Part shown: one piece after another, positions 256-57,114 of the stretch
How the letters are laid out: the number at the start of each line of letters is the position of its first letter
Numbering within the stretch: position 1 is the first letter of the stretch
Origin: Arion vulgaris
Lineage: Eukaryota > Mollusca > Gastropoda > Stylommatophora > Arionidae
Reading direction: 5' to 3'
NCBI GenBank assembly: GCA_020796225.1
Contig: CM036759.1
Coordinates: 71,339,512-71,403,511 of the forward strand
DNA length: 64,000 nt
Position numbers and translations under genes: made by a program
Notes under the pieces: model-generated
What the model was told of the DNA's origin: nothing
Seen by the model: the letters and a program-made list of their open reading frames with translations, nothing else
Database searches by the model: none

Positions 256-351
256 ACTATGCTTTACCTGTCTAGTATGATAGCAGCTACTTCTATCAGG
301 AATAGCTATATATCCTTCTACAGCCTCAATTAAGTAATAGCTTCAGCATCT

Positions 352-1640
352 TCTTCTTCTTCTTCGCAACGTTCTTCACGGCCAATTTGATCATTCTTAT
401 TGTGATGTATACTTGGTCCACTGGCAAGAACGGAGTGATCTACGCCGGGACGATTGTGCGCCCATGGTGACTAGGCCCCGTCCGTTTCAGCCAGCTTTGA
501 TTTACTAGGTGAACTTTCCCTAGGTACGATCCTTTCGGATCTACGCCTTTCGATCAACTTTGCCGTATATTTGGGCTTTGTGATCTACGCCAAGACAGTG
601 AGTTATGCTGCTTTACCGCTCTGACTGAGAAATATTTCTCGGGCTTGTCAGCTTGTCCTCGGACGGCGTCTTACTCGTATAAAACACTGTGTAAAGTATC
701 TGCCTTCGCCAATGTTCAGACCCGAACTTCCTGTTTGATCCGCATTGTCGGCCTTGCTTACCGATATTTTGAGTTTGATCCGGGAAGGAACATTCTCAGC
801 CTTTTCTAGACGCGATCGGTAGCGGCAATTTGCAATTAACCTCGAAAGCACTGGCATGGGGCCCAGTACAAACAATGTAGAGGGTCGTTTCAGTCGGCAC
901 TATCAGCGCAACTGAGGATTTTGCGCTCGCGCCATCACCCGCCCCAGTTATTCCGGGGATGTTAGTTACGACTGCAATCGAACCTGCCCAGTTGCCCCAA
1001 GGCTGGCAGTTCCGTTAGGCATCACCAACCTCAGTTCTTCCGGGGATGTTAATTTTAATCGCACAGTACCTTGCACGGTTTTCCCAGGGCGGATAGTTTC
1101 GCTATGCTCTAAACGCAACTTGTTCTTTTGCGCGCGGCAAACCTTGCCCAGTACATGTATCTGCACCAGGCTACCAATGCGGGGTCAGCTGCAATCTTCT
1201 CTCGCACCAACACGAGGGTAGACTTTCATTCGGTACGGTCCTGTCTTATTTATTCTTGCCGACGGGCTGGCAATGTTTGCCCCTCCTCAGGGCTTCGAGC
1301 TTCGCCCACGGGGCATACGCTTGGTCACTGGATGCACCTCTCATCCATGTCTGAGACGTTTCGTTGCTGTTTCTTTGTGCTCAGGGACTTGGGCAATATC
1401 TTGTTGGACATCGGTCAGGAGATTTGTGCATTTTATTTGTATGTATCTTTATCGTATTTCCGTAATTGCACTGCTACCACTACCAGTAGTTTCTCCCCGA
1501 TCCCTGCCCCTCTTAGCCCGACCAGAACCAGAGTCTGTTTCCAGGGTCACCGCGTGGAGGTTAGGGGCAGGGTCTTGCTAGCGCTCCTCGCTAACCCTGG
1601 CTCATGTTACCACTATGACCTCATGAGCCTTTTTGACCCC
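352..1640 (-). mobile_element. Element A copy 1 (non-autonomous LINE-like)
   Basis: This is about 1.29 kb and aligns throughout with the copies at 12646-13932 and 15465-16719. On the minus strand it begins GGGGTCAAA, passes through the structured 5' module (roughly 1640-1500) and ends with a segment matching GGCCGTGAAGAACG followed by GAA repeats. No frame encodes a recognisable protein. Microsatellite tails and variable-length duplications elsewhere point to LINE-type target-primed insertion driven in trans. Confidence 0.8.
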
Positions 1641-1771
1641 TCGTGTCATCTATTGAACCTCGACTGATTTAATGAGCCATTCGGGGTTTCACCGTGAGAC
1701 AGTGTGAACTTAGACATGCATGGCTTAATCTTTGAGACAAGCATATGACTACTGGCAGGATCAACCAGATA
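1641..1771 (-). pseudogene. 18S rRNA 5'-end fragment
   Basis: The reverse complement begins TATCTGGTTGATCCTGCCAG and continues through the universally conserved start of small-subunit rRNA, including the stretch around AAGCCATGCATGTCTAAG and GAATGGCTCATTAAATC. It stops after about 131 nt at GATGACACGA, where element A starts. The variable bases (TTCACACTGTCTCACGGTGAAAC and CAGTCGAGGTTC, quoted separately) resemble lophotrochozoan or molluscan 18S. A fragment this short cannot be a working rRNA. Confidence 0.93.
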
Positions 1772-2284
1772 GCTGTCATGGATGAGACCGGACCGACAAT
1801 GCTCGGGGTAGGGAGACAGCGCCTGTGCAGAGCGGATCCCGACGTCCCCGGCGAAAATGCGAATTGAAGCGAACGACGAGGCCGCTTCCCACAGTTTTGC
1901 CGGCAAGACTTGCGCCGCCAAGCAAAAACGACACCATGTTACTACCTCGGACCCACAAGCTCGTAGAGCCGGGCCTTTAACGAGACCACCGCCGAGCGTT
2001 TAAAATTTTAGACTGACTGCATCACACCGCGACCGAGAAACTTCGATATACGGACACACACACACCACCAAAGACCGCGCAGCGAGCGAGCAGTCTTAAA
2101 GCAGACGCCTACCTTGTCCCTTATTCGCTGGGAGCCTCGTCCGTGAAAGCGAGGAGGCACGCGCAGCCGTTAGAGACTATGCATGCAATTGGTTATCGAC
2201 ACTGGGGAACGCGCTGCTGACTGGCTCGCCCGTCCGGTTATTTTCAAAACGGGGAGGCACAGTTTGCAGACGCACAACCCAGAT
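1772..2284 (-). other. Probable 5' external transcribed spacer of rDNA
   Basis: This sequence lies directly upstream of the 18S start and is repeated upstream of the second 18S fragment at 36514-37025, where it is 512 nt long against 513 nt here. Both copies begin at the same place, near ATC(T/G)GGGTTGT. A shared abrupt 5' end directly upstream of 18S is what a pre-rRNA transcription start would give. The assignment is inferred from position and from the second copy, since spacers are not conserved between species. Confidence 0.7.
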
Positions 2285-2625
2285 GCTTCAGCATCTATTA
2301 AATTATACCCTCAGCCACAATTAAATCACACACTCAGCCTCAATCAAATAATACCCTCAGCATCTATTAAATAATGCACTCAGCCTCAATCAAATAATAC
2401 CCTCAGCATCTATTAAATAATGCGCTCAGCCTTAATCAAATAATACCCTCAGCATCTATTAAATAATGCGCTCAGCCTCAATCAAATAATACCCTCAGCA
2501 TCTATTAAATAATGCGCTCAGCCTCAATCAAATAATACCCTCAGCATCAATTAAATAATACCCACAGCCTCAATCAAATAATACCCTCAGCATCTATTAA
2601 ATAATGTGCTCAGTCTCAATTTGAT
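2285..2625. repeat. AT-rich minisatellite, CTCAGC-based units
   Basis: Alternating motifs CTCAGCATCTATTAAATAAT and CTCAGCCTCAATCAAATAAT repeat with a ~46-bp double period. A remnant of the array lies at about 318-351, on the far side of the composite retroinsertion, so the insertion landed inside this array. Confidence 0.9.
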
Positions 2626-10439: not shown

Positions 10440-10805
10440 CTTGAGGAAGGCAGTGGAGTCACCAGGAAAGACAGACTACGAAATGAGGACATCAGAAGCA
10501 GAGTGGGCATAACTTAATGCACCAAATACATTGAAAGACAACAAATGCAGTGGTTTGGAAATTTAATGAGAATGAAATACAACCAACCACCAATAACAGC
10601 ATACAATAAAAAGAGATCGGGTACTAGAGCTAAGGAAGACCAAGAAAAAGATGGATAGACAATATCAAAACCAAACTACATAAACACGGATACAACACAA
10701 CAAGGGCGACTCATCTAGCTATAGAACGCAAATTAAAGCTCTCATCCCTACGCTTAACGGCAAGAGTGGACAGCCAACTACATCTTCCACCTGGGAATAG
10801 ATAAT
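10440..10805 (+). pseudogene. RTE-like LINE 3' end
   Basis: The pieces RQQMQWFG-LMRMKYNQPP and RPRKRWIDNI-like match the carboxyl end at 17690-17900 and 53770-53990. The sequence ends at 10805, where the 37-bp satellite begins. No intact frame remains. Confidence 0.75.
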
Positions 10806-12341
10806 AGACAATGAAACAACCTACCAATATTTGTATTTCTAAAATTAATGAAGCAACCTACCAATATTTGTATTTAAAAAGTCAATGAAACAACCTACCA
10901 ATATTTGTATTTATAAAGTCAATGAAACAACCTACCAATATTTGTATTTATAAAGTCAATGAAACAACCTACCAATATTTGTATTTATAAAGTCAATGAA
11001 GCAACCTACCAATATTTGTATTTATAAAGTCAATGAAGCAACCTACCAATATTTGTATTTATAAAGTCAATGAAGCAACCTACCAATATTTGTATTTATA
11101 AAGTCAATGAAGCAACCTACCAATATTTGTATTTATAAAGTCAATGAAGCAACCTACCAATATTTGTATTTATAAAGTCAATGAAGCAACCTACCAATAT
11201 TTGTATTTATAAAGTCAATTAAACAACCTACCAATATTTGTATTTATAAAGTCAATGAAACAACCTACCAATATTTGTATTTATAAAGTCAATGAAGCAA
11301 CCTACCAATATTTGTATTTATAAAGTCAATGAAGCAACCTACCAATATTTGTATTTATAAAGTCAATGAAGCAACCTACCAATATTTGTATTTATAAAGT
11401 CAATGAAGCAACCTACCAATATTTGTATTTATAAAGTCAATGAAGCAACCTACCAATATTTGTATTTATAAAGTCAATGAAGCAACCTACCAATATTTGT
11501 ATTTATAAAGTCAATGAAGCAACCTACCAATATTTGTATTTATAAAGTCAATGAATCAACCTACCAATATTTGTATTTATAAAGTCAATGAAACAACCTA
11601 CCAATATTTGTATTTATAAAGTCAATGAAGCAACCTACCAATATTTGTATTTATAAAGTCAATGAAACAACCTACCAATATTTGTATTTATAAAGTCAAT
11701 GAAACAACCTACCAATATTTGTATTTATAAAGTCAATGAAACAACCTACCAATATTTGTATTTATAAAGTCAATGAAACAACCTACCAATATTTGTATTT
11801 ATAAAGTCAATGAAACAACCTACCAATATTTGTATTTATAAAGTCAATGAAGCAACCTACCAATATTTGTATTTATAAAGTCAATGAAGCAACCTACCAA
11901 TATTTGTATTTATAAAGTCAATGAAGCAACCTACCAATATTTGTATTTATAAAGTCAATGAAACAACCTACCAATATTTGTATTTATAAAGTCAATGAAG
12001 CAACCTACCAATATTTGTATTTATAAAGTCAATGAAACAACCTACCAATATTTGTATTTATAAAGTCAATGAAGCAACCTACCAATATTTGTATTTATAA
12101 AGTCAATGAAACAACCTACCAATATTTGTATTTATAAAGTCAATGAAGCAACCTACCAATATTTGTATTTATAAAGTCAATGAAGCAACCTACCAATATT
12201 TGTATTTATAAAGTCAATGAAACAACCTACCAATATTTGTATTTATAAAGTCAATGAAGCAACCTACCAATATTTGTATTTATAAAGTCAATGAAACAAC
12301 CTACCAATATTTGTATTTATAAAGTCAATGAAGCAACCTAC
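10806..12341. repeat. 37-bp satellite, about 41 units, abutting a CWF19L2 exon
   Basis: The unit CAATGAAGCAACCTACCAAT plus ATTTGTATTTATAAAGT repeats about 41 times with almost no length change. The main variation is GAAGCAACC versus GAAACAACC. On the minus strand each unit contains ATTGGTAGGTTG, the same word that forms the 5' splice site of the adjoining exon (ACATTG|GTAGGTTG). The array therefore starts exactly at the splice junction and repeats the donor-like sequence. Confidence 0.95.
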
Positions 12342-12416
12342 CAATGTTTTCAGATCAAACTTGTCATCATCATCAAAGTATATTGTTCTCTCTCCTTTGA
12401 CGTCATGTGTTGCCAC
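12342..12416 (-). CDS. CWF19L2: CWF19L2 homologue, 75-nt exon
   Basis: CWF19-like proteins associate with late spliceosomes and, in yeast, assist the lariat debranching enzyme. This exon encodes 25 residues including THDVKGERTIYFDDDD, which matches the conserved acidic motif just before the CwfJ domains. On the minus strand it follows a strong acceptor (TTTTTTTCAG at about 12417-12426) and ends at TTG|GTAGGT. Both ends are phase 0, fitting the phase-0 exon at 18505-18774, so the two join as ...GGKRRKRN-VATHD.... The following CwfJ/HIT-like exons must lie below position 1. The donor is embedded in the first unit of a 37-bp satellite. Confidence 0.8.
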
Positions 12417-12645
12417 CTGAAAAAAACACACAAATATCATGACACCAAAACTTGCAGTTCAGCATCACAATCTTAGAACAGTAAAGTCGTAGTCAGCTGA
12501 AATTGCCTATCAACCAACAGTGTGTTGCACCAATAGCCAAGTCAATAGCACACTTCCTAGTAACCAAATTATGTGCTAATTTTGACAATTGAGGCTAACT
12601 TACGTTGCTGGACTACAGGTTTCCTGGTTGTTTACTTGAGGATCT

Positions 12646-13932
12646 TCTTCTTCTTCTTCGCGAACGTCTTCACGGCCAATTTGATCATTCTTATTGTGAT
12701 GTATAATTGGTCCACTGGCAAGAACGGAGTGATTCACGCCGGGACGATTGTGCGCCATGGTGACTAGGCCCGCCGTCCGTTTTTTGCCAGCTTTTGATTT
12801 ACTAGGTCAACTTTCCTAGGACGATCCTTTCGGATCTACGCCTTTTCGATCAACTATGCCGTATATTTGGGCTTTGTGATCTACGCCAAGACAGTGAGTT
12901 ACGCTGCTTTACCCGTTCTGACTGGAAATATTTCTGGCTTGTCAGCTTGTCCTCGGACGGCGCTTACTCGTATAAAACACCGCAAAGTATCGCCTCGCCA
13001 ATGTTCAGGACCCGAGCTTCCTGTCTGATCCGTACATTGTCGGCCTTGCTTTACCGCATATTTTGAGTTTGATCCGGAGAAGGAACATTCTCAGCCTTTT
13101 CTAGACGCGCTTTGGTACGTGACAATTTGCAATTAACCTCGAAAGGCACCGGCATGGACCCAGTACAAACAATGTAGAGGTCGTTTCAGTCGGCGCTATC
13201 AACGCAACTGGGGATTTTGCGCCGCCACTATCACCCGCCCAGTTATTCCGGGATGTTAGTTACGACTGCAATCGAACCTTGCCCGGTTGCCCCGATGCTG
13301 GCAGTTCCCTTAGGTCTCTCCAACCTCAGTTCTTCCGGGGGTGTTAATTTTAATCGCACAGTACCTTGCACGGTTTTCCCAGGGCGGGTAGTTTCGTTAT
13401 GCACTAAACGCAACTTGTTCTTTGCGCTCGGCAAACCTTGCCCAGTACATGTATCTGCACCAGGCTACCAATGCGGGGTCAGCTGCAATCTTCTCTGCAC
13501 ACACAGGGTAGACTTTCATTCGACTGGTCCTGTCTTATTTATTCTGCCGACGGGCTGGCAATGTTTGCCCTCCTCAGGGCTTCGAGCTTCGCCCTACGTG
13601 GCATACGCTTGGTCACTGGATGCAACTCTCATCCATGTCTGAGACGTTTCGTTGCTGTTTCTTTGCGTTCAGGGACTTGGGCACTATCTTGTTGGACATC
13701 GGTCAGGAGAATTGTGCATTTTATTTGTATGTATCTTTATCGTATTTCCTTAATTGCACTGCTACCACTACCAGTAGTTTCCTCTCCCCGATCCCTGCCC
13801 CTCTAGCCAGACCAGAACCAGAGTCTGTTTCCAGGGTCACCGCGTGGAGGTTAGGGGCAGGGTCTTGGTTAGCGCGCGCCCTCGCTAACCCTGGCTCATG
13901 TTACCACCATGACCTCATGAGCCTTTGACCCC
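12646..13932 (-). mobile_element. Element A copy 2, complete
   Basis: This 1287-bp copy is bounded by the perfect 12-bp duplication ACTTGAGGATCT (12634-12645 and 13933-13944). On the minus strand it starts GGGGTCAAAGG, contains the 5' module with the pair GGTTAGCG/CGCTAACC, and ends in GAA repeats. It inserted into an intron of the CWF19L2 gene in the same orientation as that gene. There are no coding motifs. The exact duplication makes both ends certain. Confidence 0.92.
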
Positions 13933-15464: not shown

Positions 15465-16719
15465 TCTTCTTCTTGATCGTTCTAGGCCTGTTTTAATCAT
15501 TCTCATTGTGATATATAAACATCGAACATCAGAACGTGATGTACGTGCACCAGCCTTCAGCACCTATTTGAGCCCAGTTGCTTATCCTTCGGTGGGGTGT
15601 TCGATTTCAGCCAGCTTTTGATTTACTAGGGTGAGCTTTCCTAGGTACGATCAGCTTTGCCGTATTTTTGGGCTTTGTGATCTACGCCGGGACAGTGAGT
15701 TACGCTGTTTATGCCCGTCTGACTGAGAAATATTCTCGGGCTTGTAAGCTTATCTCGACGGCGTCTTACTCGTATAAGACACCGTGTAAAGTATCTGCCT
15801 TCGCCAATGTTCAGACCCGAACTTCCTGTTTGATCCGTACATTGTCGCCTTGCTTTACCGACATTTTGAGTTTGATCCGGGAAGGAACATTCTCAGCCTT
15901 TCTAGACGCGCACGTACGTGGCAATTTGCAATTAACCTCAAGCACTGGCATGGGGCCGAGTACAACAATGTAGAGGTCGTTTCAGTCGGCACTATCAGCG
16001 TAACTGAGGATTTTGAGCGCCGCCATCACCCGCCCCAGTTATTCCGGGGATGTTAGTTACGACTGGAATCAAACCTGCCGCTGCCCCAGGCTGGCAGTTC
16101 CGTTAGGCATCACCAACCTCAGTTCTTCCGGGATGTTAATTTTAATCGCACAGTACCTTGCACGGTTTTTCCAGGGCGGGTAGTTTCGTTATGCACTAAA
16201 CGCAACTTGTTCTTTGCGCTGGCAAACCTCGCCCAGTACATGTATCTGCACCAGGCTACCAATGCGGGGTCAGCTGCAATCTTCTCGCACCAACACGAGG
16301 GTAGACTTTTTCGTACGGTCCTGTCTTATTTATTCTTGCCACTGGCTGGCAATGTTTGCCCTCCTCAGGGCTTCGAGCCACTCACGTGGGCATATGTTTG
16401 GTCACTGGATGCACCTCTCATCCATGTCTGAGACGTTCGCTGCTGTTTCTTTGCTCAGGGACTTGGGCAATATCTTGTTGGACATCGGTCAGGAGATTTG
16501 TGCATTTTATTTTATTTGTATGTATCTTTATCGTATTTCCGTAATTGCACTGCTACCACTACCAGTAGTTTTTCTCTCCCGATCCATGCCCTCTTAGCCA
16601 GACCAGAACCAGAGTCTGTTTCAGGGTCACTGCGTGGAGGTTAGGGCAGGGTCTTGGTTAGCGCGCCCTGCAACCCTGGCTCATGTTACCACTATGACCT
16701 CATGAGCCTTTTTGACCCC
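15465..16719 (-). mobile_element. Element A copy 4, complete
   Basis: This 1255-bp copy sits inside the 36-bp satellite. GAACAAGCTTAT flanks it at 15453-15464 and 16720-16731; because this word is also part of the satellite unit, the duplication is suggestive and not proof. The clean junctions show the 5' end as GGGGTCAAAAAGG and the 3' end as a short GAA tract. Confidence 0.88.
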
Positions 16720-20848: not shown

Positions 20849-22185
20849 ATATACTACTACTACTACTACTACTCGCGATAATTCTTCACGGCCAATTTTA
20901 TCATTCTTTTTGTGATATATAATTGGTCCTTGACAAGAACGCATTGATCTACGTTGAACCCAGTTGATCTCAGTTGATGCGCCCATGGTGACTAGGCCCG
21001 TCCACCCGTTTTTAGCCTGCATTTGATTTACTAGGGTGAGCTTTCCCTAGGGTACGATCCTTTCTACCGACTATTTCAGCCCGGATCTTCGCCTTTTCGA
21101 TCAGCTTTGCCGTATATTTGGGCTTTGTGATCTACGCCAAACAGTGAGTTATAACTGTTATGTCCTTTCTGACTGTGAAGTCGTTCCAGATTAGGAACAT
21201 TTCACGGGGCCTATAAGCTTGTCCTTGAACGGCGTCTTACTCGTATAAACCACTGTGTAAAGTATCGGCCTTCGCCAAGCACAAATAATGTAGAGGGTCG
21301 TTTCAATCACCGCTATCAACGCAACTGAGATTTTGCACTCGCCACCATCACCCGCCCCAGTTCTTCCGGGATTGTTAGTTGTGACTGCAACAGTACTTGC
21401 CCTGTTGCCCCAAGGTGGCAGTTCCATTAGGTATTACCCGCCTCAGTTCTTCCGGGGATGTTAGTTGTTATCGTAACCGTACCTTGCACAGTTTTCCCAG
21501 GGAGGGCAGTTTCGTTATGCACTAAAACGCAACTTTATGTTTTGCGCTCTGCCAACCTTGCCCAATAATTGTATCTGCGCCAGGCCACTGATACGGAGTC
21601 AGCTGCAATCTTCCCTTGTACCGAAACGAGGGTAGACTTTTATTCATTACTCATCTGACTTATTTATTCTTGCCCCACAGCTGGCAATGTTTGCCCCTCC
21701 TCAGGGCTTCGAATTTCGCCCTATGTGGGCACATGTTTCGTCACTGAATGCACCTCTCATCCTTTCATGTTTACTAATCTCCCCATCGGCAGAGAAACGG
21801 TAATTTGTGGCCGGACCTTTGACTTACACATCGAGCTTGTGTATGGAGTCTCTTGCTCCGGAGATGGCAATTTGTATTCAGCCCTTACTCTGGTGGAATA
21901 GGGATTCTATTAGACGTTTTGCTGCCGTTTCTTTTTGTTCGGGAAATTGGGCAATATTTTGTTGGACATCGGCCAGGAGATTAGTGCATTTTGTTCGTAT
22001 GGACCTGCATTGCTTTTCCGTACTTGCACTGCTACCACTACCAGTAGTTCTCTCCGATCCCTGCCCCCATTAGCCAGACCGGAACCAAAGTCTGTTTCCA
22101 GGTCACCACGTGGAGGTAGGGGACAGGGTCTTGATTAGTGCCAGCTCACTAATCCTGGCACACCTCCTCATGCGCCTTTGACCCC
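20849..22185 (-). mobile_element. Element A variant, copy 5, complete
   Basis: This 1337-bp copy is bounded by ATGACTG at 20842-20848 and 22186-22192. Its 5' module reads GGGGTCAAAGGCGCATGAGG with the helix GATTAGTG/CACTAATC, a compensatory change from TTAGCG/CGCTAA in copies 2 and 4. Its 3' microsatellite is (TAC)n on the plus strand and not (TTC)n. The middle has diverged from copies 1-4. Confidence 0.85.
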
Positions 22186-22289
22186 ATGACTGGTATGTGA
22201 TGCCTAGTGACAAAAACGCTGAAAAGACATAAGAAGAATCCGAAGAATTTTTGTTGGTTTGTCCGCTATGAATTCATACGTAGTCATAC

Positions 22290-28248: not shown

Positions 28249-29539
28249 TTCTTCCTCAATCGCTCTAAATTAGTTTTCATCATTCTATTGTGATATATAA
28301 ACAGCCAAACATCAGAATGTAATGTACTTGCACCAACCTTCAGCACCTATTTGAGCACAGTTGCTTATCCTTCGGTGGGGTGTCGATTTCAGCCAGCTAT
28401 TGTGTGCGGTTCACTCTCCGCTAGCCTTTGACTGTCCCCAGCCGTAACCCTCAAGGCAGTGGGCTGCTATTTTCTTTCAGGGCAGCGACCCTTAGACGGC
28501 CTGCCCTCTCGGGCTTATGAACGCCATCTGTCCAGCAAAACCAGTCGTTTTAATGAACACCTTGATTTGCGCCGCTCAGGTTTGTTTGCGTTTGTTCGCT
28601 AGCTTTTGATTGTCCCCAATCAAAACTACAAGGCAGTAGTATTTCCCTGCGAGCGGAAACGCGCACTGGCTTTACCTCTGCTGGGCTTTCCAATTGTTCT
28701 GTACATTTGGGTGGGACGCACACCCTGCCTGCCGCGCTTGCCCTGGTTTTGCCTCTGCTGGGCTTTCCAGTTCTACTCATGTGGGTGGACGCACACCTCT
28801 TGCCGTGCTGGCCTGCCCTTCGATGGGGCCCACTATGACTTTGCCAGCGTGTGTGCTAGCCCTGCCCTGATACCGTCATCATCGTCTTTTTCCATGCTCA
28901 CATTTTTCGCCACATGTGGCGCCACCTTGCACGTCCTATGCGCGCTCTGCCCTGGTGCCTACCTCCTACCACTTCCATCAATTCCTACTGGACTGTCCGA
29001 CTTTGAGTGGGCAAAACCGAGTTTACCCCATGTTGCCCACGTGCAACTCAACTCATTATCCGGCATTCCCATCGGCTCAAGAAATATGCAACAAGAGAGA
29101 GAATGAGTGGGCTCCGAACTCTGCCACCCGCGGTCAACCTCCCTTCAATGGTTTTTATTCGAACTTTTGACCCATGTGGACCAATGCGTGGTCCAACTCG
29201 TCACCCGGCATTCTCATCGGCTCAAGAAACATGCAACAAGAGAGAGAATGGGCTACGAGTTCCGCCTCGGCTGTTCCACATGTGTCGCTCAAGCTTCTAC
29301 CGGGAGAGGCGAGCATTAAGTCACTCTGGAAGTTTGCTCGTCTGTGTTGCGGGCGGATCCCATCAAGCATGACTACCTTTGCATCTCTACTTGCCCCAGA
29401 GTAGCTCTCCCACGGCACCTACCCTCTTAGCCAGACCGGAACTACCGTCTGTTACCAGGGTCACCACTTAGAGGTGAGAGCAGGGGATTAGAGCCACCTC
29501 CTTAATCCTGGCGCGCCGCTTCCTTGCGCCTTTGACCCC
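28249..29539 (-). mobile_element. Element A variant, copy 6, complete
   Basis: This 1291-bp copy is inserted in a LINE RT frame. The flanks AGCTGCATTC (28239-28248) and AGCTCGCATTC (29540-29550) are a near-identical duplication. The 5' module is present (GGCGC/GCGCC hairpin; CAGAC/GTCTG hairpin) but the ACCCT arm is degraded. Its interior (28380-28570) matches the 5' untranslated region of the LINEs at 33460-33700 and 37780-38000, tying the element to that LINE. It contains two internal duplications (about 83 bp at 28670-28800 and about 145 bp at 29065-29260). Confidence 0.87.
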
Positions 29540-29696
29540 AGCTCGCATTCAAAACTTTTAGCAGCTTTTTCTTGGCTTTCTTGCCTAGGTTGATGAGCAT
29601 CTCATTTGTGATGCCCTCCTTTACTTGTGACTTCTTAAGGTTAAGACCCTGGAGTGCTTCTTCAATCACCTCTGTCTATGTTGAGACGTCTTGTCC

Positions 29697-33400: not shown

Positions 33401-36400
33401 AAATACACAAAACCCTGACCAAAGCCCCAAAAATCTTCAAAGCGCCCCAAAAAACTGCCGTTTTTTGAGGAACTGCGCCCTTTGGTGTCAGGGTTTGGGG
33501 TAACGGCAGGAGCAAACCGTAAACAAACCTGACAGTACAACCCAAATTGTTCAAAAAAACGACGGTTGGGTGGGAAGAGGGGTCATAAGCCGGGAGGCAG
33601 GTCATCAAAGGGGTGCACCCCTGAAAAAAAATGGCAACTCATTGCCTTGTGTTTTTTTGGCTGGGGCGTAAGGTAACGGGCGAACCGTATACAAACGCGG
33701 GTTTAAAACGGATACCCGTCCGAAAGATAAGCCCCTGGCTCAAAACAATCTGTTCCTCATCACGCCCCGGGGCGACCCCCAAACTTTCCCGGAACTGGCA
33801 CGGAAACCCAATTTGGCCGAAAAAGCGTTATACAAATATCATGGGTTCCCAAACTGGGATAGTGACCATAGACCTGTAAAATTCAAGGGGGCCTCAATTT
33901 GTCCCTGGCCCAAAATGGTTCCCACGGTGGAACTATAAAAAGGAAATTTGGGAAAACAGTATGGGCACGACTGATCAAATGTTGAAGAATCAACATGCAT
34001 GACAAAAAAACGTGCGTCGGCAAGGAACTGTCGAAGAATCCTGAAAGTGGCAAAACCATCCCCAGGGGCGCAGAAAGGTTAAAAGCCATACTGGACAGCA
34101 GAGGTTCAAAGCGAAAAGACCATGAAAGACAAGGAGTGGGGCAGAGCAGGACAGTCAGGGGAGACAAACACTGTCTACAAGGCGGCACACAAAAAACAGA
34201 AAAGAGGTAAAAAGGGGGGCGGACAAGTTGGGGCAAAACCTTTAATCCCTGAACCTCGATAGGGCGCCAAAAATGTGGGCTGGGCCAAAAGGGGGCCGAT
34301 GTCCACAGACCCCATATATGAACAAGACAAGAAGATGGGGGAGGGGAACAACAAAAATCCATGCAACAATATCCCCAAAACAGCAAGACATAACAAAGAA
34401 AATTGATCCCCCCAAAAAAGCTCCCCCCAAGGGACCGAAAAACAGATATCACCTAGGGAAATTTCCCTTTGAACTGGGAAAAACTTTAAAAGGGCCTGAA
34501 ACAAAATCGCCCCAAAGATGGATCAAATGAATGAAAAAAATTTGGGGAAACAGGGGCAAAGGTGTCCCGTGGGTTTTCCGTTGGGAACGGCTAGTACCAA
34601 AAAATGGAAAAAAGCAATCATGGTGCCCATCCCCGGCAAAAAAAAAAAAAACCCAGCGGGGTTCGGCCTAAACCCCCTAAGCTCCGGCAAACTTTGGGGA
34701 AGGGTAAATTACCTGGCATTTGGAGAGGAAAAAGGGTGCTTTTGGCCCGGGGTTTGGGGAAAACAGATAGACAGAGGATCAAAACCTCATTTCCAGGGGA
34801 ATGAGGGGTTTCCAAGAAAAAAAAAAAAACTGGCGGTCTTGGAGATATGGGGAAAGGGTTTTTCACAGTCTGGAAAAAAAAGGTTAAAGGGTAAAACTTC
34901 ACCCCGCTAAAAAAAAGAATGCAATTCCATGATACCCAAGAACAGAACAGCAAGGGGTTTAGGGTTTAGGGGGACAAAAAATTAAAGGCCACACTGGAGC
35001 AAGAGTCCCCCAAGGAGGAGTTTCCCCGACTCTCTTTCGTCTTTCCCCTACACAACATCCTCCCAGAGGGGTTCCCCCATTTGCCCAAAATTGGGAATAA
35101 AGGGGGAGAGAAATAAACCCCCAGCAGAAAATCAGCAAAACCCTTTTTTGGTGGGTAGGTGGAAAATTTTAAAAATTAAAAAACCCCTTACATGCCCCAA
35201 TCAAAGGTTCAAGATAAAGCAAATTGGGCGAACCTTCCAAAAAAAAACCCCAGTCCTGGGGGCCCCTGCGAAAACTGACTTTGGGGCCCAGATCAAATCT
35301 TTGAAAAACGGGGACAGGCAACAATGATGCTAAACTCGGGGTTCCAATGGGAGCAAACAGCAATTCTCAAAATTTCTCTGGGAAATGGCCGGTCCCCTTC
35401 GGTTGGCGCGTGGGCAATGCATCGAACAAGCAATTGCAAAATAAACAGCAAACCGGCCCCCCCTTTCACTGAGCCATAAAGTCCACCCCATCAAGGGGAT
35501 GGAACCATCACAGGCATCCCCCAAAAAATTTGGAAAGGGAAAAAAATAGTGGGCGGAAAAACTCAAAGCCAAATCGACCCTGATGAAAAAATGTTTCAAT
35601 CCAAAATGGAGAATCAGAATCTTTGGGGTTTAATCTCTACGCCCCACCACAGACCACCCCGTCCTGCCAAATGCACAGCTAAACCAAAACCCCTCGCGAT
35701 GGGGAAAACAAAAAAGGGAAATAAAAAGGGAAACTCCCAGGCAAATGAGCAAAAAGGGGCCAAACGACCCCGAAGAAAAACGCGGGAAGACAAATCAAAT
35801 CCCCGAAAGGGGGCCCCGCTCACGGACGGATCGGGCAAATAAAGAAAAAGCGGGGGAAGAAAACAAAACCCAAAAATCACGTCAAAAACTTTCAACTAAA
35901 TCTCGAAAAACTAAGGGGAGGCAGAGGCAATCAAAAAAGGGGGGAAAGGTCTTGGGGAAAAAACCTAGCCCAAAGGGCTGATATTCCGATGCTCTATCGG
36001 TCATCACCGGGACTCTCGTCGGGAAACTGAGATGAATGAGCCAAAACGTCCTCGCTGAATCGGTTCCTCAGCACTGTCATCAGTGGGTACCGTCCACCAA
36101 AATTAGAAAGGGGGCCCACAAGCTAGCCAAAAAGGGGGGGCGTACCCCCCGCATCTGACCTCAGCTTTAAACAAAACCCAGTTCGCCTTCGAACAAGTGG
36201 GCAAAAAACCACCCCAGAAAAAAGTGCGGATACTATGGTCTCCGCAGTGAAAAAGTTACCCTATTTGCCCCCGTCCCCAAAAAAGCTCAACATGTTTTAA
36301 AATTTAAAAGGGTTTTGGCCCTTTCAAATGGCAGACATGACGGCAGAACACCTTGCAAGTGTCCCCGTTTAGCAGGTATACAAAAATATGGGCCCCAAAC

Positions 36401-36513
36401 ACACAGAGCCGCAAAAACTGAGGGGGAACGGGTCCCCAAAAAAAAACAGTTAAATTCATGATAAAGTTGGTCCATCAGGGGGGGCCCGGAAAAAAGGAAA
36501 GGAAGTTTCGATC
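33401..36513 (+). pseudogene. I-type LINE, corrupted copy 1
   Basis: A 5' untranslated part (33455-33740) matches 37780-38060 and the interior of element A copy 6. The end of the endonuclease is visible (DHRPVKF-like, PRWNYKK at about 33860-33950), followed by RT traces (QMNEKNLGKQGQ, KKWKKAIMVPIPGK at 34600, VPQGGV near 35010) and RNase H remnants to 36380. It closes with the LINE 3' end (AAAGTTGGTCCATCAGG...GGAAAGGAAG). Much of the amino-terminal endonuclease is missing. Frames are broken by homopolymer-type changes. Confidence 0.7.
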
Positions 36514-37025
36514 ATCGGGGTTGTCGTCTCCCAACTGTGCCTCCCCATTTAAAATAACCCGAGCAGGGACCGGTAAAGCGAGCGGGTTCCCCCAGTGTCG
36601 ATAACCAATTGGTGCATAGTCCCCAAACGGCTGCGGCTTGCCTCCTTTTTAAAGGGGCGGGGGCTCCCAGCGAAAAAAAGGGAAAAAATGCGTCTGCTTT
36701 AAGACTGGCTCGCTGCGCGCGGGTCTTTTGGTGGTGTGTGTTTTCCATTATGTGGGTTTCCCGGAGCGGTTGTGATGCAGTCAGTCTAAAATTTTAAACG
36801 CTGGGCCGGTGGTCTCTTTAAAAAGGCCCGGCTCTTTGGCGACTTGTGGGTCCGCAGGTAGTAACATGGTGTCGTTTTTTGGGCCCGGCGCAATTTTTCC
36901 CCGGCAAAACTGTGGAGGGGCTAAATTTTTCCCTTCAATTTGCTTTTTCCCCGGGGGCGGGGGGAACCCGCTCTCCCAAGGCGCTGTCCCCACCCGGGCA
37001 TTTGGGTCGGCCCGCCCATGACAGC
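36514..37025 (+). other. Second copy of the 5' ETS leader
   Basis: This is homologous end to end to the reverse complement of 1772-2284, with 512 versus 513 nt. It contains AACTGTGCCTCCCC, GTGTCGATAACCAATTG and GATGCAGTCAGTCTAAAATT. It ends at the 18S start. Upstream sequence is the 3' end of a LINE and not rDNA, so this too is outside an rDNA array. Confidence 0.72.
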
Positions 37026-37160
37026 TATCTGGTTGATCCTGCCAGTAGCCCAATGTTGTCTCAAATTAAGCCATGCATGTCTAAAGTTCACACTGTCTCA
37101 GGTTAAAACCCGAATGGCTCATTAAATCTTTGAGAGTTCAATGGATGCCCACGATCCGTC
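37026..37160 (+). pseudogene. 18S rRNA 5'-end fragment, second copy
   Basis: It starts TATCTGGTTGATCCTGCCAG and runs through AAGCCATGCATGTCTAAAG and GAATGGCTCATTAAATC to about GATGCCCACGATCC. It stops at about the same point as the copy at 1641-1771. Base changes relative to that copy are of the homopolymer type. Confidence 0.88.
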
Positions 37161-40100
37161 AAACCCCAAATTTTTCCGGCGGAAAATAAAACCAGGGTTA
37201 GCAAAGGGGCGCTAACCAAACCCTGCCTCTAAATCCCCACCGGTGACCCTGGAAAAGACCCCGGGTTTCCCGGTCTGACAAAAGGGGGGCAGGGAGGGGA
37301 GCCCGTAAAAGAAAGAAAAAGGGCCGAAAACCCCTGGAAATTCACACATCCCCGGGCCCGGGTTGCCCCGAAATAGGCAAAAAAACAGCAGCGTCGAAAA
37401 TTTCTTGATGATAGGGGAGCTTAGGGCCCCTTAAGCAAAAAGGAAACCCCTGAAAAAAAACCACACATTTCCCCGGGGAAACCCTAAAATTACCCCATAC
37501 TCAGAAAGAACTGGAGAAGGCAAGCCCGGGAAACCGCCTTCGTGGTCATAAAACTGGGGACTGGAAACCCCAAAAATCAAAATTTCGGGCCCAAAGCCCC
37601 AAAAAATCGCTTGAGCCCCAAAAATCGAAACAGTAGAGTCGTGAGTCCGCGCCAAAACAGTGGTCCTGCAATGCAGAAAAACGGGGAAGTCCCTGAAAAT
37701 ACACAAAATTTCCTGCCCAAAAGGGGCCGCAAACAAAGTCTTACAAAAAGCGCCCCAAATGAAACATAGCTCTGTTCTTTTTGAGGAACTCCCGGCTGCC
37801 TTTGGTGTCAGGGTTTGGGGGTTACAATAAAAGGCAAAGCGGGCAAACCGTAAAAAAACCTAAACAGGACGAACCAATGTGTTCAGTAAAGCGACCGGTT
37901 GGGGGGAAAGAGGGCCCTCATAAGCCGGGAGGGCAGGTCATCTAAGGGTAGCAGCCCTAAAAAAAAAGGCAACTCATTGCCTTGTGAGTTTTGGCTGGGG
38001 ACAGTCGAAGGCTAACGGGGCTTAAACCGTTACAAATGCTGGTTTGGCGGATCCCGTCGAAAGATAAGCACCTGAGCTAAAAACGGCACTGAAAGTGAAA
38101 CCCGTAGCTCCCCATGCTGACGCTGCTGGACTAAATTTTTTTATCATGAAATGTTTATTAATTGAAAATCGATTGGTGCTACGCCTGAAAGTCCCCCGGA
38201 GCGGGGCGGGGGGGCCCCCATGCCTAAAGGGGGCCCCGCTTTATCTGGCTTTCCCGCCCCCCAAACCGGCCCCCAGCGAGCGGGGGTAACCGGGTTAAAA
38301 CTACTGGAAAAATACGGTGTTTGCCATAAAAATTAAATATCACCCAATGGAATGCGGAAGGTATCCCCCAAAAAAAAGAAAGCATTAATAAGACTTGCAA
38401 AAGGGCTTTATAGTTTTGGTGCATACAAAAGCACCTAAATCCCAGACATAAGTTGAGACCCAAGGTTCCAGCCCTTAGAACAGACAGAAAGGACAAAAGG
38501 GGTGGAGTCCTCCCCCTAGCCCAGAAATGGCTTTCCCGACCAAGCAGATGGAAGGAAAAAAGGGAAACCCGGGCAGTTGAGATCATAAATTTTGCAAATT
38601 TTTTTAAAAAACATACAGATCATTCGGGCCAATTTTTTCCTGCCCAAATTTTTAACAGGTGTCTCAAAAAATTTGAATATCAGTGAAACTCATGTATTGT
38701 GGTGGTGATTTCAACACCCTTTTCGGAGAAGGGGGGTATCGAAACAAACGGAAAGGGGGTTGAGGTGGAAAGACGGGGAGATCGAGAACAATCTTTTCCT
38801 CTTTGGCCAGGCGATCCACCAACTTTCTGGCGTGGCACAAAATAGTCCCCCTGTTTTGGGCCCTTTTGCAACAACGATATATCCCCCAAAGTAGTCCGTC
38901 GGTTCCCACCAACAGGGATATTGACCATGGACCTGTCAAATTGCAAGTAGACCTCAATTTAAATGCCTGAGCCCAAAATGTGGTTGCCAGGGGGGAACTA
39001 AAAAGGGGCCAATTGGAAACATTTGGAGCACTGACTGATGAAAATGTTGGCAATCCATGAAAAAAAGAAAAACGTCCGAATCGTGGAAAGGGAACTGTCA
39101 AAACAATCCTGAAAGGGGCACGGGAAACCATCCACAGGGCCCGAAGGATTACAAAGCCATCTGGACCCCCAGAGGTTCAGAAGCTTAAAAAAGACCTTGA
39201 GAAGAAAAAGGGGTGAGGAAAGAGCAGGCACAGCCCCAGGGGAGACAAACACTGTCACAAGGCGGAAAAGCAAAAAATACAGAAGAGAGGGTCAAACGAG
39301 CGGCGAGACAGAGTTGGGTCAAAACAACCGAACCCCTAACCTGGGAAAAGGGCGGCCATAAACTGGGGAAGCTCCCCAAAGCGCTGGCGAAAGCAAACAG
39401 ACCACCTATGGCCCTCGAACAAAAACAAAAAAGATGGCTTGGGGGGAAGCAGCAAACACCCCTGATGCAACAATATCCCAAAGTCAGCAAGAAAAGCGCG
39501 GGGGAAAAAAGTTGATGCCACCAAAAAGAAAAAGCTGGGCTCCCCAAAAAGTGGGGCCAAGAAAAAGCAGATAGTCACCAAACGGACATTCACCAGAAAC
39601 GGGGCTGGAAGAGGTTTTAAGGGACCTAAAAGGAAAGCCCCCGGAAAGATGGGATCACCAATGAGATGCTTAAAAATTTGGGGGAAACAGAGCAAAGGTG
39701 GCTCTCTGGCCGTTCTCAATTTCGTGGAAAACCCCGGGCCCAAGTACCGAAGAATGGAAAGAAGCAACCCCATGGTACCCATCCAAAAAACCAGGCAAAA
39801 ATAAACCCCCCCGGCGATTACAGAAATAAGCCCCCTAAGCTGCGGGCAAACTTTGGGCGCATGGTGAACAAAGCTTATCCTGGCATTTGGGGAAAGAAAA
39901 GGGGGCTGCTTATGGCACAACAAGGGGGGTTTTCCCCGGGGAATCCAATCCCCCAGGGGACCCAAGAAACCTACATTGCCCGGGGAATGGGAAGGGTTTT
40001 CCCAAAAGAAAAGAAACAGACACTGGGTCTTGGTAGATATGGAAGGTTTTTGACACAGTCTAAAAAAGAAGGACAAAGGCTAAAACTGCTCCCCCTGGGC

Positions 40101-41267
40101 GTAAAGGGAAGAATGTAAAATTTGGGCGATAGATACCTAGAGAAAAAGAACAGCTAGAGTTCAGGTTCGGGGGACAAAAGTATAAAGGACACGGAAAAGG
40201 AGTCCCCCAAGGAGGAGTGCTCTCCCCCGGCCTCTTTCTAGTCCCGTAAATGACATTGCAACATGCCCCCCAAAGAGCGAGTTCACTCTCCCATGTATCC
40301 CGGGCGACTTGGCAATATGGGCGAGAAAAAAGCCCAACCCCACAGCAGAAAATCGACTAAAACTACGTTAAATAACCTTGAAGTGGTCAGCAAAGGGGAA
40401 ATTTAAAAAATAAATCCCTTCCCAAAGACCCCCCACACTGTGTTCCCCCCAGAATAAAAAAGGATTACAAGATAACCCCAAAGTCAATGGGCAGAACCTT
40501 CAGAAAAAAAAACCCCCAAAGTTTTCCAGGTCACACTCCGACAGAAACTGACTTGGTCAGCAGATCGAAAATCTTTCAGGGCCCAGCGAGACACAGGCTA
40601 ACAATATAAAACCCAGGGTTTCCACAGGGAGCAAACAGCGAATTCCCCAAGACACTTTACTCGGGTAGAGTGGGCCGGCCCCTAGAGTGGGGTTTGGCAG
40701 CGTGGAAAAATTTTGGGGAAAAAAGAAATTTAAAAAGTAAAGGCAGCAGTCAAAACCAGGCCTCGCATTATCACTGGAGCCATAAAGTCCACACCCATCA
40801 AGGCGAGGGGAGACCATCACAGGCACCCAACCAATGACGACCGAAGGGACAAGAAAGTAATAGTCCGGAAAAACTAAAAGGCTCAAATCCCCCCCAATGC
40901 ATGAAAAATGTATAATCCGGCAAGTGGAGAATACAGAATCTAACCGTTAGAATCTCTACTTGCTTGAACCCGAACCACCCCAGTCCTGTCCAAATGTCAC
41001 CCAAAACCAACCCCGACAATTGACAATTTCCCGCCATGGAAAACAAAAATCCCCCGGGAAAAAAGGAATCAATCCCAGGCATACGAAAAAAAGGGGATCA
41101 AACAAACCTCGACAGAAAAACTGCAGCAGAGGGAACACATGAATAAAAATTACCCTGAAAATGAGTGGGAAAACGTCTCACGGACGGATCGGCAAATAAC
41201 GCAAAAAAGCGATGGCGGAGGGGGAATAGTCCCCAAAATCCCCAAAAAAAAAAACCGTAATTAAAAA
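37161..41267 (+). pseudogene. I-type LINE with rRNA leader: 5' UTR, endonuclease, RT, start of RNase H
   Basis: After the 18S fragment comes the element's 5' module (CCAGGGTTAGC...GACCCTGG at 37190-37260) and a long 5' untranslated region. At about 38336 QWNAEGI opens an APE-type endonuclease, with GGDFNT at 38700 and TNRDIDHGPVKLQ at 38910. RT traces follow, including GVPQGGVLSP at about 40200, and then the stretch before RNase H and its start (40860-41260). It is then cut by a ~5.1-kb insertion and resumes at about 46400. Corruption prevents any long frame. This looks like a nearly full-length autonomous relative of element A. Confidence 0.72.
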
Positions 41268-41639
41268 TCTGTATTTTTACAAATTACAAAAACAATGCCC
41301 AAAATACAGCAACGTTTGGCCAAAAAAGGGCCTTTATAAAACAACAAAGAAACGGGAAGTGACAAATTAAAATGAAACACAAAGGGGCAACCAAAAAAAA
41401 ACGTATCTAAGGAAAATCGGGAAAAAAAACGAATACGAAATAAATGTAACAAAAAAAACACACAAAAACTAGAAATAGAAAAAGGAAAAAAAAATAAAAA
41501 CATCTTTTAAATAAAAACGGGCCATATACCCAAAAGATTACAAAGCGGGGGAAAAAGTACAAAAGAAGCATAAGAAGGGAAAATATAACATGTATTAATA
41601 TACCCATTAGATTAAAAAAGCAGGGGAAGAAAAGTCTAA

Positions 41640-44130
41640 GAAGCATAAGAATGTAAAAATTTGAGCCGCGTGGTATGAGTACCATAAAAAGGGAAATCAA
41701 CGATTTCCAGAGCAAATGGGCTCGATCATCCGGGGAAAACATTTGGATGGCTGTGACCTGGACATCGTGAGCACCTAAATACCCCGTGTCATTGAAATGG
41801 GGTGGCTACAGGGTCCAAAAAGCATTGGCGTATGTCGCGTAAGTGTTGGGGGAATCGGTCACTGAGCCTCTTGCCTGTCTCACCGATATAAGCCTTGTTA
41901 CCAAAAGGGTAATAGCATAGATAAGATTAAAGGACCCATGTGAACCCCTCGTCAAAAGAAACGTGCCTAAAAAAAAGATACAGGGGCGGGGTCTTTTCAC
42001 ATGGGCCCCGTGTTAACCGGCCCCGACCACACTGGACAGTGCCAAAATGATCGGGTTTGGACTTAAACGTGACCAAAAATATCCTTTAAAACTTCTGTCC
42101 TCTGTAAAACACCAAAGGATAATTGGGGAAGAAAAAACAGGTCTCAGGATCTGATCTAAGGAGAGACAGATGAGGGGAAAAAAACATTTTTTACCCAAAG
42201 GGGAAATATGGGGGGGGTAAGTTAAGATTAAAATTTTTCTCTGTCAGAGTTAGATTTTCCCCCCTGACTGGTAAGGGCCTGCTGGGGGTGATTTTCTGAA
42301 CTCGATGCATGGGCCCAGACAAGCACCCTCTCCCCGGGGATAGGGGCCTCCGAAAGAAATCAAACATCTCGCAGCTCTAAGAAAATCATCGTCCTCACTA
42401 CAAAAGCGGGCGTAAGAAAAAGCGAGTGGAAAAGTACGACAAGACCGGGGGGTGGGAAAAAGTATAGAGGGGAAAACTATTTGCATCAGTGGCTTGTAAT
42501 ATCTGATGTATAGATAGTGGTTGGAAGGGGAAGGGGATAGTAATGTCAAAAAAGTTGACACAAGTAGTGGAGATGTGGAATAAAGCGAATAGAAGGGGTT
42601 TAAAACTTTTAAATTAATGAAGCGTGACAAATCGGCTTAGGGAATTTAGTGATCCAAACCGGGCATAATGTTTTGTGATGAAAAGACGGAAGGGCCATCA
42701 TATGTAGTCCGTACTGGTGTTCAAAATAACCCCGGGAAAAAAAACGCCCAACTGGTCCCCTTTTAGTACCCATCAACCCACTGATTCCAAAAAATTTGGG
42801 CATTAAACTGAAAGGGTTAAAAGTGAGAACTAGTTTCCCCAAGGCGAAGGAGAGCAGAAGTTAACAAGTGGATTAGTTCTCCTATTGAAAAGAAAAGGAA
42901 AAGGGTATAAGGCCGTCAGGATGAGGGGATAGAAATGTACAATGAGCACACTAAAGGAGGAAGAGCGGTAGGTTCTCTCGGGTGAACTTTAATGGTAGAA
43001 AAAAAACAGACAAAACGTGGTTTGTATCCTTTAAAAAAAAGGCCCCGGGGTGTGGTGACTATGGGATTAAAAATGCTATCCCAAGGAATTTGGAATGTGT
43101 TCCGTGGGGGGAGGAACAACCCAAAACATTTGGCCTCCGGGGTTTGGGGTTTTTGAATTTTGGGGGGCATATAAAGGCGGGTTTCCCCAAAAAGCTATCG
43201 ATCACCAGGTGATGATGCCCCCTGGATGGAAGGTTTTTGGCAATTAAGTTCTTAATGACCCCCCGAACCTTATTATTTTAGCCCGGGGGGCATCAGTAGG
43301 GGTGGTTTTTTAAAACTGAGTGTCACGCATTGGGTATGACCTTCCTGAAGGTGAATCTTTTTCTCCCAAAAGACTATAGCTCTGCCTTTGTCCGGGTTTG
43401 ATAACAATGTCATCACGTCGGGTGTGATAGAGCATGAAACTCCGGGGGTGACATTTAGATAAAGGCGTTTTGGGGGGAAAAAGTCCCAAAATCATGATAG
43501 TATTCTTGATGTAGAGATCCCAAAAACGTTAGAGGGCCCCGGTTTGGGGTGTCCAGTCATGTTTGTGAAAACTTGGAAAACATCTCGTGTCAGGACATGG
43601 TCCCAAATCCCCTGGTTCTGGTGAAACCCCAAACGCAAACCACGGTGAAAACAAATCACATCTTGAAAGTTGAGTAGTGGTCAATAATTTGGGTCGGGAG
43701 GAACAAACTTAAGACCCTTACCCAAAAAGATCTCTCGTTGTCCGATAATGGAAGGTCTGGAGGGGAAAACAAACCACCTTTTGGGGGAGAAGATCGTAGT
43801 GGACAATTGGAAAGGAGTATTTAAAAAGGGACAGGGCAAAAAAGGTTAAGTTTTTTTTGTTGATGGGTGCAAAGAAATTCATACAGTTGTCTGTTAAGTA
43901 CATGGAAAAAAACGAACAAAAGGGGAAAAAGGGATTTTTTTTAGAAGTGAGAAGTCGTAGGCGCTGAAGAAGTTGGGACTGGGAGGGGGTCCAAAATCAG
44001 ACAGAAAATGTTGTTAGCCCTCTTCGTCGGCGAAATCCCAATCCCAACTAAGCTTTTTGGGTTCCTGGGAAAGCTCCTTTTCTCCCCGTCATTCTTTCCA
44101 AAAGGCCTGTATAAATTTTTTGCCCCTTCC
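41640..44130 (-). pseudogene. Penelope-like RT and GIY-YIG endonuclease remnants
   Basis: Penelope-like elements encode an RT and usually a GIY-YIG endonuclease. On the minus strand: SLVGIGISPTKRANN (about 44050) resembles the amino-terminal LSxGLxFxPT block; RRDDIVIKPG (43414) followed by MRDTQF matches the RT start; PPKIQKPQTP (43170) is the PKIHKP motif; ISGLMGTKRGP (about 42780) is the GTxMGT motif; the carboxyl part (42000-41640) reads DSPNTYATYA and ends LISLFMVLIPRGSNF, in the position of the endonuclease. Frames are broken throughout. Assignment rests on the order of motifs. Confidence 0.62.
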
Positions 44131-56218: not shown

Positions 56219-57110
56219 GTGCACTCAGATGGACAACATAACGCCAGGTTTATTGAGCTTGCACTTATCAAGATCCTACCCCACCTTGACATGGTGATCC
56301 TTGAAACAGACAACGGATCTTGTCTGTCTAAGTGGGTAGGTATTGAGGGAGAGCCTATCTCAACGTTATCATTACTCTTAGAAGAGAATGTAGAGATTGG
56401 GGCAACATGAAGGCTGATCTCGCAGTTAAGCAGCTGATAGAAAATGATGCAAGGGATGATGATGTTGTTGTATATACTGATGGGTCGGTTCAACATGGTG
56501 AGAAATCCGGCTGGGGTTTCTTGGCTAATGCGCATGGTAGGGTTGTTGCAGGCGAAGTGGGGCATACAGGACAACTACTTCTAGTATGAGGATGGAGGTT
56601 GAGGCCGTTACTGCTGCCCTCCATTGGATTTCTGGGACTTCATTTACTGGGGCAGTTGTTGTATCTGACTCTCAGTCGATGCTTCACAAGATCAGAAGGG
56701 CAGGTTTCGGTATGAGTGGATGTCGTCTATAAAAGTTTCTAACCTCCAGCGGCTTACGTGGATATACTGTCCTGGGCATGCGGGTGTTTACGGTAATGAG
56801 AGAGCGGACAGGCTTGCATCAACAGCATCGATTTTTGGGGAGTTGAAGATGGATAAGGGAGATATTCTTCGGTCTCTTTGCGACTGTCTGTTGGATGAGG
56901 AAACTAAAATCGATGTTGAATCGATCAAGCGATTTAAGCAGTTTGGAGTTACCCGTTGTTCAAGTCGAACTGGATGCCTGAGAGGCAGAGAGGTGTGTTT
57001 AATCAGCGAGCCACAGGAACAATCAGTATGCATACTCTTTGATATCTATTGGGGAGACTGAGCACCTATGGGTCTGCCTGGAGTGCAATGGCGTCAGTTT
57101 AGTAACCAAT
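56219..57110 (+). pseudogene. LINE family 2 fragment: 5' module joined to RNase H
   Basis: 56219-56360 is the conserved 5' module (CGCCAGGTTTATTGAGC, GCACTTATCAAGATCCTACC, CAGACAACGG...TTGTCTGTC). It is followed at once by RNase H: DVVVYTDGSVQHGEKSGWGF (56460), VVSDSQSMLHKI (56660) and WIYCPGHAGVYGNERADRLA (56757). The endonuclease and RT are missing, so this is an internally deleted copy. It shows that the 5' module belongs to family 2 as well as to the I-type LINE and element A. Confidence 0.78.
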
Positions 57111-57114
57111 AACC

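Follow-up and report, generated by a model that had tools for sequence, protein, structure and literature searches.

Pre-rRNA leaders, often stacked, on retroelements of Arion vulgaris: probable passage of a LINE family through the 18S rRNA gene

How does the beginning of a ribosomal RNA precursor come to stand in front of a mobile element inside a minisatellite? The question is raised by an insert on the minus strand of the window analysed here (the whole 64,000-nucleotide stretch of Arion vulgaris DNA, from an assembly of 1.52 Gb). Direct reading bore out the anatomy proposed for it by a first-pass annotation, namely a duplication, a 513-nt leader, 18S nt 1–131, an element (element A) and a GAA tail (Table 1). 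The 12-bp duplication GCTTCAGCATCT brackets leader, 18S, element A and tail, and in the reading of this locus within the genome survey (L031) AGATGCTGAAGC is present at both insert ends. The Rfam model of eukaryotic SSU rRNA matched from position 1768 on the minus strand with 44.3 bits against a gathering score of 50 (E 3.4e-10); at the gathering threshold Rfam gave no match anywhere in the 64-kb window, and ARAGORN detected no tRNA genes there. The leader is part of native rDNA on C7, which is 97% identical to the majority head (leader plus 18S part) of dispersed copies (L153, L154), and about 150 nt upstream of the leader's first bases, ATCTGGG, are common to two C7 rDNA units. The window leader is an outlier among heads, being 23 nt shorter than the majority head and 95.6% identical to it, while 37 of 47 head rows are at least 99% identical to the majority (gaps ignored; some rows represent the same copy twice). 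Its joint is without the TCC found at the usual joint, hence 18S nt 131 rather than nt 134. The body of element A in this insert contains no sense reading frame of at least 150 aa and looks non-autonomous.

Table 1. Features of the insert and of related copies in the window
Feature	Position	Strand	Basis
Target site duplication, copy 1, GCTTCAGCATCT	340..351		Sequence read directly
(GAA)n tail of element A	352..365	-	Sequence; tail type matches other A copies
Element A body, about 1.3 kb	366..1640	-	Headless copies begin at the base equivalent to 1640
Predicted HDV-like ribozyme	1503..1640	-	P1 = element nt 1-7 (GGGGTCA) with TGACCCT; predicted cut 1641/1640
18S rRNA nt 1-131	1641..1771	-	RF01960, E 3.4e-10; nt 1 at 1771, nt 131 at 1641
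Pre-rRNA 5' ETS leader, 513 nt, first base 2284 (A of ATCTGGG)	1772..2284	-	Majority head versus native C7 rDNA, 97%
Target site duplication, copy 2, GCTTCAGCATCT	2285..2296		Sequence read directly
23/46-bp minisatellite, recipient of the insert	2288..2621	+	Repeat analysis
Headless element A, duplication GATCCTCAAGT	12635..13932	-	Alignment; starts at 13932
Headless element A (aligned part), in a 36-bp minisatellite, duplication ATAAGCTTGTTC	15605..16719	-	Alignment
3' portion of a further LINE B copy, immediately before the headed one	33856..36491	+	73% to L061
Second headed copy, leader and 18S joined to LINE B (poor-quality-looking)	36513..41249	+	L061 72-4896 at 80%; head match

The 18S/element junction at 1641/1640 is real, as the same junction of head and element A was found on other chromosomes. 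Because this junction recurs and headless A copies start at the same base, it is not a product of chance; within the window, the A copies starting at 13932 and 16719 begin exactly at the base that follows 18S in the insert. A search with the insert, in which 40 of 6066 candidates were scored, returned 41 long matches to element A, 37 of them headless (27 read base by base, 10 judged solely from the start of the match) and four headed (the window copy, L002, L003 and L055 at C7:12.03 Mb). The headless loci that were read (L004–L030) start with GGGGTC in 26 of 27 cases and with AGGGTC in L020, so that most copies of element A are headless and begin at the base with which a predicted HDV-like ribozyme would start.

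Heads themselves proved to be common. The best 40 of 1123 candidates from a search with leader and 18S gave 60 places on 17 contigs, many of them head to tail, and the 30 loci fetched from these represent 28 distinct ones. Heads start with ATCTGGG at 26 of the 28 headed loci (L036 and L039 deviate in the first bases) and comprise about 670 nt of leader and 18S in dispersed copies; an exact duplication lies directly in front of the head at 16 of the 28, and for most of the others the far end falls outside the locus. The usual joint to element A is GACACGATCC/GGGGTC, at 18S nt 134, while other joints have lost the start of the element, as many as some 20 nt of 18S, or both. L055 has a second kind of 18S joint, its head reaching nt 1061, another predicted target site, before element A. 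A single accidental fusion is ruled out by heads read at 30 distinct loci (these 28 and two more) and found upstream of 39 of 40 LINE B 5' ends (see below), and segmental duplication of one insert by the separate flanks and duplications of the inserts. Where the first-pass annotation saw one escaped insertion, the insert instead belongs to a family that recurs in the genome, has stacked heads and bears a predicted ribozyme at its joint.

The second kind of body behind these heads, LINE B, is a non-LTR retrotransposon (LINE) with an endonuclease, a reverse transcriptase and a target duplication, AAATCACTGATGC. Its reference copy, L061, measures 5.6 kb with its head and has a frame broken into pieces, in which Exo_endo_phos (41.4 bits; Exo_endo_phos_2 also matched) and RVT_1 (70.4 bits) were identified together with an RNase_H match of 23.3 bits, below the cut-off of 25.8. 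Members of the R2 clade possess a restriction-like endonuclease and no APE domain, and R2 itself is not known to have an RNase H part; the APE-type endonuclease match is contrary to a placement of LINE B in that clade. A search with the LINE B 5' UTR, a query free of head sequence, showed 18S head sequence directly upstream of the LINE B 5' end in 39 of the 40 scored among 6002 candidates (five already known, 20 of 20 and 14 of 15; mostly only the 18S part was read). The sole headless copy among those 40, L114, has the P1 strand GGGTCA, as do three headed copies. Several dispersed LINE B copies have junction classes in common (for example GACACGAT/GCAGGGCC and GATCC/GTCAAAGG), which speaks against the template jumping considered below. 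When head starts were read at nine LINE B loci, five lay at ATCTGGG behind other sequence, one was a stack joint, two lay about 10–21 nt inside the head, and C927 had no head at the place read. The LINE B 3' end was found at seven of eight loci, C755 being the exception. Tails of LINE B at L084, L085, L088, L089 and L091 are GGAAA- or GAGA-rich, as against the (GAA)n of element A.

Element A could be a deletion derivative of LINE B, yet the matches observed between the two lie only in the 5' ribozyme region and their tails differ. At 56229–57800 of the window lies an element whose 5' end resembles a ribozyme and whose 3' part matches element A; it also holds a fragment that looks, by eye, like RNase H. 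It may be a LINE with an internal deletion, connecting A with its helper. The neighbouring reading frame at 55084–56103, with a clear RNase H domain (E 7e-15), probably belongs to another LINE. Positions 34000–44000 of the window are homopolymer-rich, strongly A-skewed and only 73–80% identical to LINE B L061, and LINE B 5' parts elsewhere in the genome are 93–98% alike; this part of the window (about 34–44 kb) looks like a poorly polished, low-quality consensus, leaving the details of the second headed copy uncertain. The window also contains, at 10801–12349, a minisatellite with a 37-bp unit in about 42 copies (97% matches).

Why should so many heads end at 18S nt 134? A target motif was built from 43 dispersed insertions (42 of element A with or without a head, one of LINE B), a spread of sites that excludes an R2-like restriction to a single rRNA site. 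The nick motif is AAT^RA, and duplications measure 10–14 bp in 38 of the 43 insertions. Across 18S nt 1–1061, a nick after nt 120, which would give a duplication of nt 121–134, ranks fourth of 1047 positions; it ranks third with a motif derived from the 22 headless sites only, and sixth and seventh with narrower motifs. The usual 18S joint at nt 134 fits the element's own target motif. The 18S ends at nt 345 (in a stack at C4:14.9 Mb) and at nt 1061 (in L055) have fair but less robust nicks 10 nt upstream, that at nt 1051 falling to ranks 31 and 50 with the narrower motifs. For the ends at nt 134, 345 and 1061 the fractions of positions as good are 0.026, 0.062 and 0.053, respectively (combined p 0.005).

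These ends bear on template jumping, in which the reverse transcriptase would leap from the 5' end of the element RNA to a fragment of pre-rRNA and copy this as far as its 5' end, repeatedly in the case of stacks, and no element would need to reside in 18S. Jumping agrees with the facts that most heads end at the same base, and that joints shift by a few bases, some of them without the 5' end of the element (joints at nt 117–129 with loss of the element 5' end are also produced by jumps), and it explains well why L056, a LINE B fragment starting within RNase H, bears two heads. Human L1 makes chimeras with 28S, 5S and U6 RNA (PMC13174262). The position of the 18S ends on the element's own target motif argues against jumping.

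A resident element should interrupt 18S, which would resume on its far side. A search for 18S sequence downstream of nt 134 gave 42 rows, and 35 upstream flanks were read: 28 have the 18S 5' part in place (five of them in the C7 rDNA cluster), one has another break and six are resident-like. At these six (L121, L129, L134, L138, L147 and L150, all outside the C7 cluster) a LINE B-type 3' end, recognised by eye, and a tail are followed by GATGACACGATCC, after which 18S resumes. GATGACACGATCC is a second copy of 18S nt 122–134, with a one-base change in two of the six; this resumption after the same duplicated target again counts against jumping. Judged by eye, the six belong to at least two subfamilies, and in L147 the 18S is altered. 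A LINE B-type element thus interrupts 18S sequence in six of 35 flanks, at loci that may or may not be working rDNA units. The five units read in the C7 cluster are all uninterrupted near nt 134, and an A-type (GAA)n tail before resuming 18S was seen in none of the 35 flanks, a weak absence given that the rDNA is likely incompletely assembled. On the 5' side, L121 and L134 show neither a head nor a LINE B 5' end where expected, and L147 has poorly matching heads in a row instead of a native promoter.

The first-pass annotation had envisaged an 18S-resident family near nt 131, rDNA units carrying the element, and fused transcripts of that family inserted elsewhere, with a template jump as the main alternative. 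Residence is upheld for LINE B by the joint at the target motif and the six flanks with resuming 18S, and is not seen for element A itself; interrupted 18S sequence occurs at those six loci and not among the five units read in the C7 cluster. The guess about fused transcripts fares well for the family, the interpretation as a whole is partly supported, and the case for a template jump is weakened by the joints at the target motif and by the duplicated 18S target.

The usual joint is also the place at which the predicted ribozyme would cut, since the predicted cleavage would coincide exactly with the start of element A and with the 18S joint. The drz-agam-1 model scored 29.4 bits at 1503–1583 of the window and 28.0–35.6 bits at five A loci (gathering score 37), and LINE B L061 gave no Rfam ribozyme match at E 0.5. 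We take J1/2, P3 and the J4/2 cytosine of A to fit the HDV layout, a nested double pseudoknot of P1–P4 that is cut before G1. Diverged relatives of the A 5' end occur on the minus strand of the window at 29407–29540 and 22044–22186 and start with GGGGTCA together with the P1 partner. P1 pairing with TGACCCT is complete (7/7) in five A copies and in the relative at 29540, and 6/7 in the relative at 22186; two LINE B copies, in the register applied here, reach 4/7 and 3/7. Random 7-mers pair fully in 0.14–0.18% of cases. With the register moved along by one base, many LINE B copies show, by eye, a single mismatch in P1, which may leave cleavage possible.

Copies read with the P1 5' strand comprise 28 headless (27 A, one B) and six headed ones (three A, three B), and those without it comprise no headless and 37 headed ones (one A, 36 B). 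The pooled contrast (p 4e-17) counts the 10 unread A copies as P1-intact, one of which, at C7:56.2 Mb, matches only from element nt 9; the contrast is moreover confounded with family, as A supplies 27 of the 28 headless copies and LINE B 36 of the 37 headed ones lacking P1. Within families the contrast gives p 0.10 for LINE B alone and p 0.10 for A alone. Stacks differ from single heads in the complementary P1 strand, which is absent from 7 of 7 stacks and from 7 of 22 single heads (p 0.002; 29 headed loci with known body, taken from the 40 of 1123 candidates with the most similar heads). L040, in which no body was recognised and the second of two heads is diverged and shortened, was excluded from this test.

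Stacks consist of two to six heads, mostly joined as GACACGATC(C)/ATCTGGG, and in the stack at C4:14.9 Mb one head extends to nt 345 before the next starts. How a stack arises can be read at C638, where the order is head, a second head joined to LINE B, the LINE B 3' end and tail, GATGACACGATCC, and a 5'-truncated LINE B (about 4 kb of the middle are unread). Here a headed LINE B is inserted at nt 134 of another head, and insertion alone made the stack, which counts against template jumping. Remnants of an older head within joints (GACACGATCC-GACACGAT-GCAGGG in L039 and L047, GATCC-AT-GCAGG in L061) fit such an insertion at nt 134 with a shortened copy. In stacks, neighbouring heads are for the most part no more alike than heads from different loci, and the different variants they carry disfavour duplication at the DNA level; the stack at C4:14.9 Mb is more homogeneous, three of its four neighbour pairs being only 3–4 bases apart. 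The idea that the oldest head lies next to the body, prompted by more mismatches to the majority at the body than at the outer end in five of seven stacks, is too weakly supported to keep.

Stacks also bear on RNA ligation, a route proposed for U6 and L1, in which ribozyme cleavage would leave the element RNA with a 5'-OH, RtcB would join this end to the terminal cyclic phosphate of a pre-rRNA fragment, and retrotransposition would follow. Head-to-head joints start at the presumed 5' end of the transcript, the chemistry of which is unsuited to RtcB, so that no substrate would be available, and the stacked heads belong to copies lacking P1. Ligation seems to us very improbable, even though the usual joint coincides to the base with the predicted ribozyme cut and a review describes the joining of U6 to L1 RNA by ligation (PMC13247085).

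Heads and bodies have different histories. Among 18 A inserts with heads, divergence is 1.8% between heads and 4.4% between the bodies belonging to them, with the body distance exceeding the head distance in 138 of 153 pairs and a correlation of 0.32; without the diverged heads of L031, L003 and L051 the values are 1.0% and 4.05%, 104 of 105 pairs and 0.15. Nearly all these loci were chosen for the similarity of their heads, among the best 40 of 1123 candidates (L003 came from the insert search), and this selection lowers head distances, yet it leaves the divergent bodies unexplained. As heads are more alike than bodies, rDNA was likely the single homogeneous pool from which they were drawn repeatedly. 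That heads vary largely independently of bodies is compatible with template jumping as well. It is at odds with a captured internal promoter, by which dispersed headed copies would transcribe themselves from ATCTGGG and propagate without rDNA: fresh draws from rDNA predict, as observed, heads that resemble one another more closely than their bodies do, and the head stubs in L039, L047 and L061 together with C638 point to passage through nt 134. Rodent L1 elements have monomer promoters, with tandem head-to-tail monomers in the 5' UTR, and the stacks look like such monomers; a captured promoter would also suit the heads on 39 of the 40 LINE B copies scored among 6002 candidates and their common junction classes, but on balance we regard it as improbable.

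We therefore favour, as the probable explanation, that LINE B, likely with its partner A, inserts at 18S nt 134 and is co-transcribed with pre-rRNA, and that retention of the leader stacks the heads. LINE B would enter 18S at nt 134 by target-primed insertion, for which both site and duplication are seen, and element A likely in the same way, to judge from its joints. Resident copies would likely be transcribed with pre-rRNA from ATCTGGG, presumably by Pol I, and likely be freed from the leader by self-cleavage of the predicted ribozyme. Where the ribozyme is defective or misses its cut, the leader would be kept and headed copies inserted elsewhere, as in the window. A headed transcript that re-entered 18S would yield leader-18S-leader-18S-element, and the stack would grow; C638 shows such a step, and the order of events in the other stacks is inferred. 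Template jumping appears unlikely as the full account, and it may contribute alongside this route. On the same grounds the window insert is probably a fused transcript of pre-rRNA and element A that was inserted once into the minisatellite. We also lean, somewhat less firmly, towards a ratchet, by which a LINE with a failed ribozyme gains one complete leader at each passage through 18S, so that the stack is a count of these passages and a record of their sites (nt 134, nt 345).

If this is correct, the 18S gene serves as the site of transcription for a LINE family that has an APE-type endonuclease and whose insertions also occur outside rDNA. The role of the ribozyme would be to keep the host leader out, with none retained where P1 works and leaders kept and stacked where it fails. 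LINEs would have a way of gaining tandem 5' monomers, the origin of which in other LINEs is to our knowledge an open question, and dispersed copies would mark the start site of pre-rRNA. Among the titles and opening lines of abstracts that literature searches listed, none was recognised as describing LINEs with stacked pre-rRNA leaders.

R2, and R8 of hydra, resemble the present elements in inserting into rRNA genes, R8 into 18S (PMC5035012). For R2, a further paper describes an HDV-like ribozyme at the element 5' end that cuts the element from the rRNA co-transcript, and variable 5' junctions when the cut lies at the element end (PMC3774820). Unlike R2 and R8, the elements described here are not confined to rDNA and enter other DNA too, at a short A-rich motif and with duplications mostly of 10–14 bp; unlike R2, LINE B possesses an RNase H part and an endonuclease of the APE type, and the copies retain and stack heads of some 670 nt. 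LINE-1 chimeras with 28S, 5S and U6 likewise fuse part of another RNA to the front of a LINE in one insertion, and one report lists 18 cases with 28S, of median length 269 nt, often starting near nt 3636 and mostly in sense orientation (PMC13174262). The heads described here, in contrast, start at the first base of the leader, one joint dominates, and 39 of the 40 LINE B copies scored are headed. SINEs have a Pol III promoter in their head, and those derived from 5S or 28S rRNA form families with an rRNA module of their own. They share with the present copies an rRNA-derived part on an element mobilised by a LINE (PMC13174262), whereas the heads studied here match native rDNA, are re-drawn and include leader spacer. 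The 5' UTRs of rodent L1 are similar in placing head-to-tail monomers before the LINE body, but the units in A. vulgaris are pre-rRNA from ATCTGGG to 18S nt 134, and the step by which they are added is visible.
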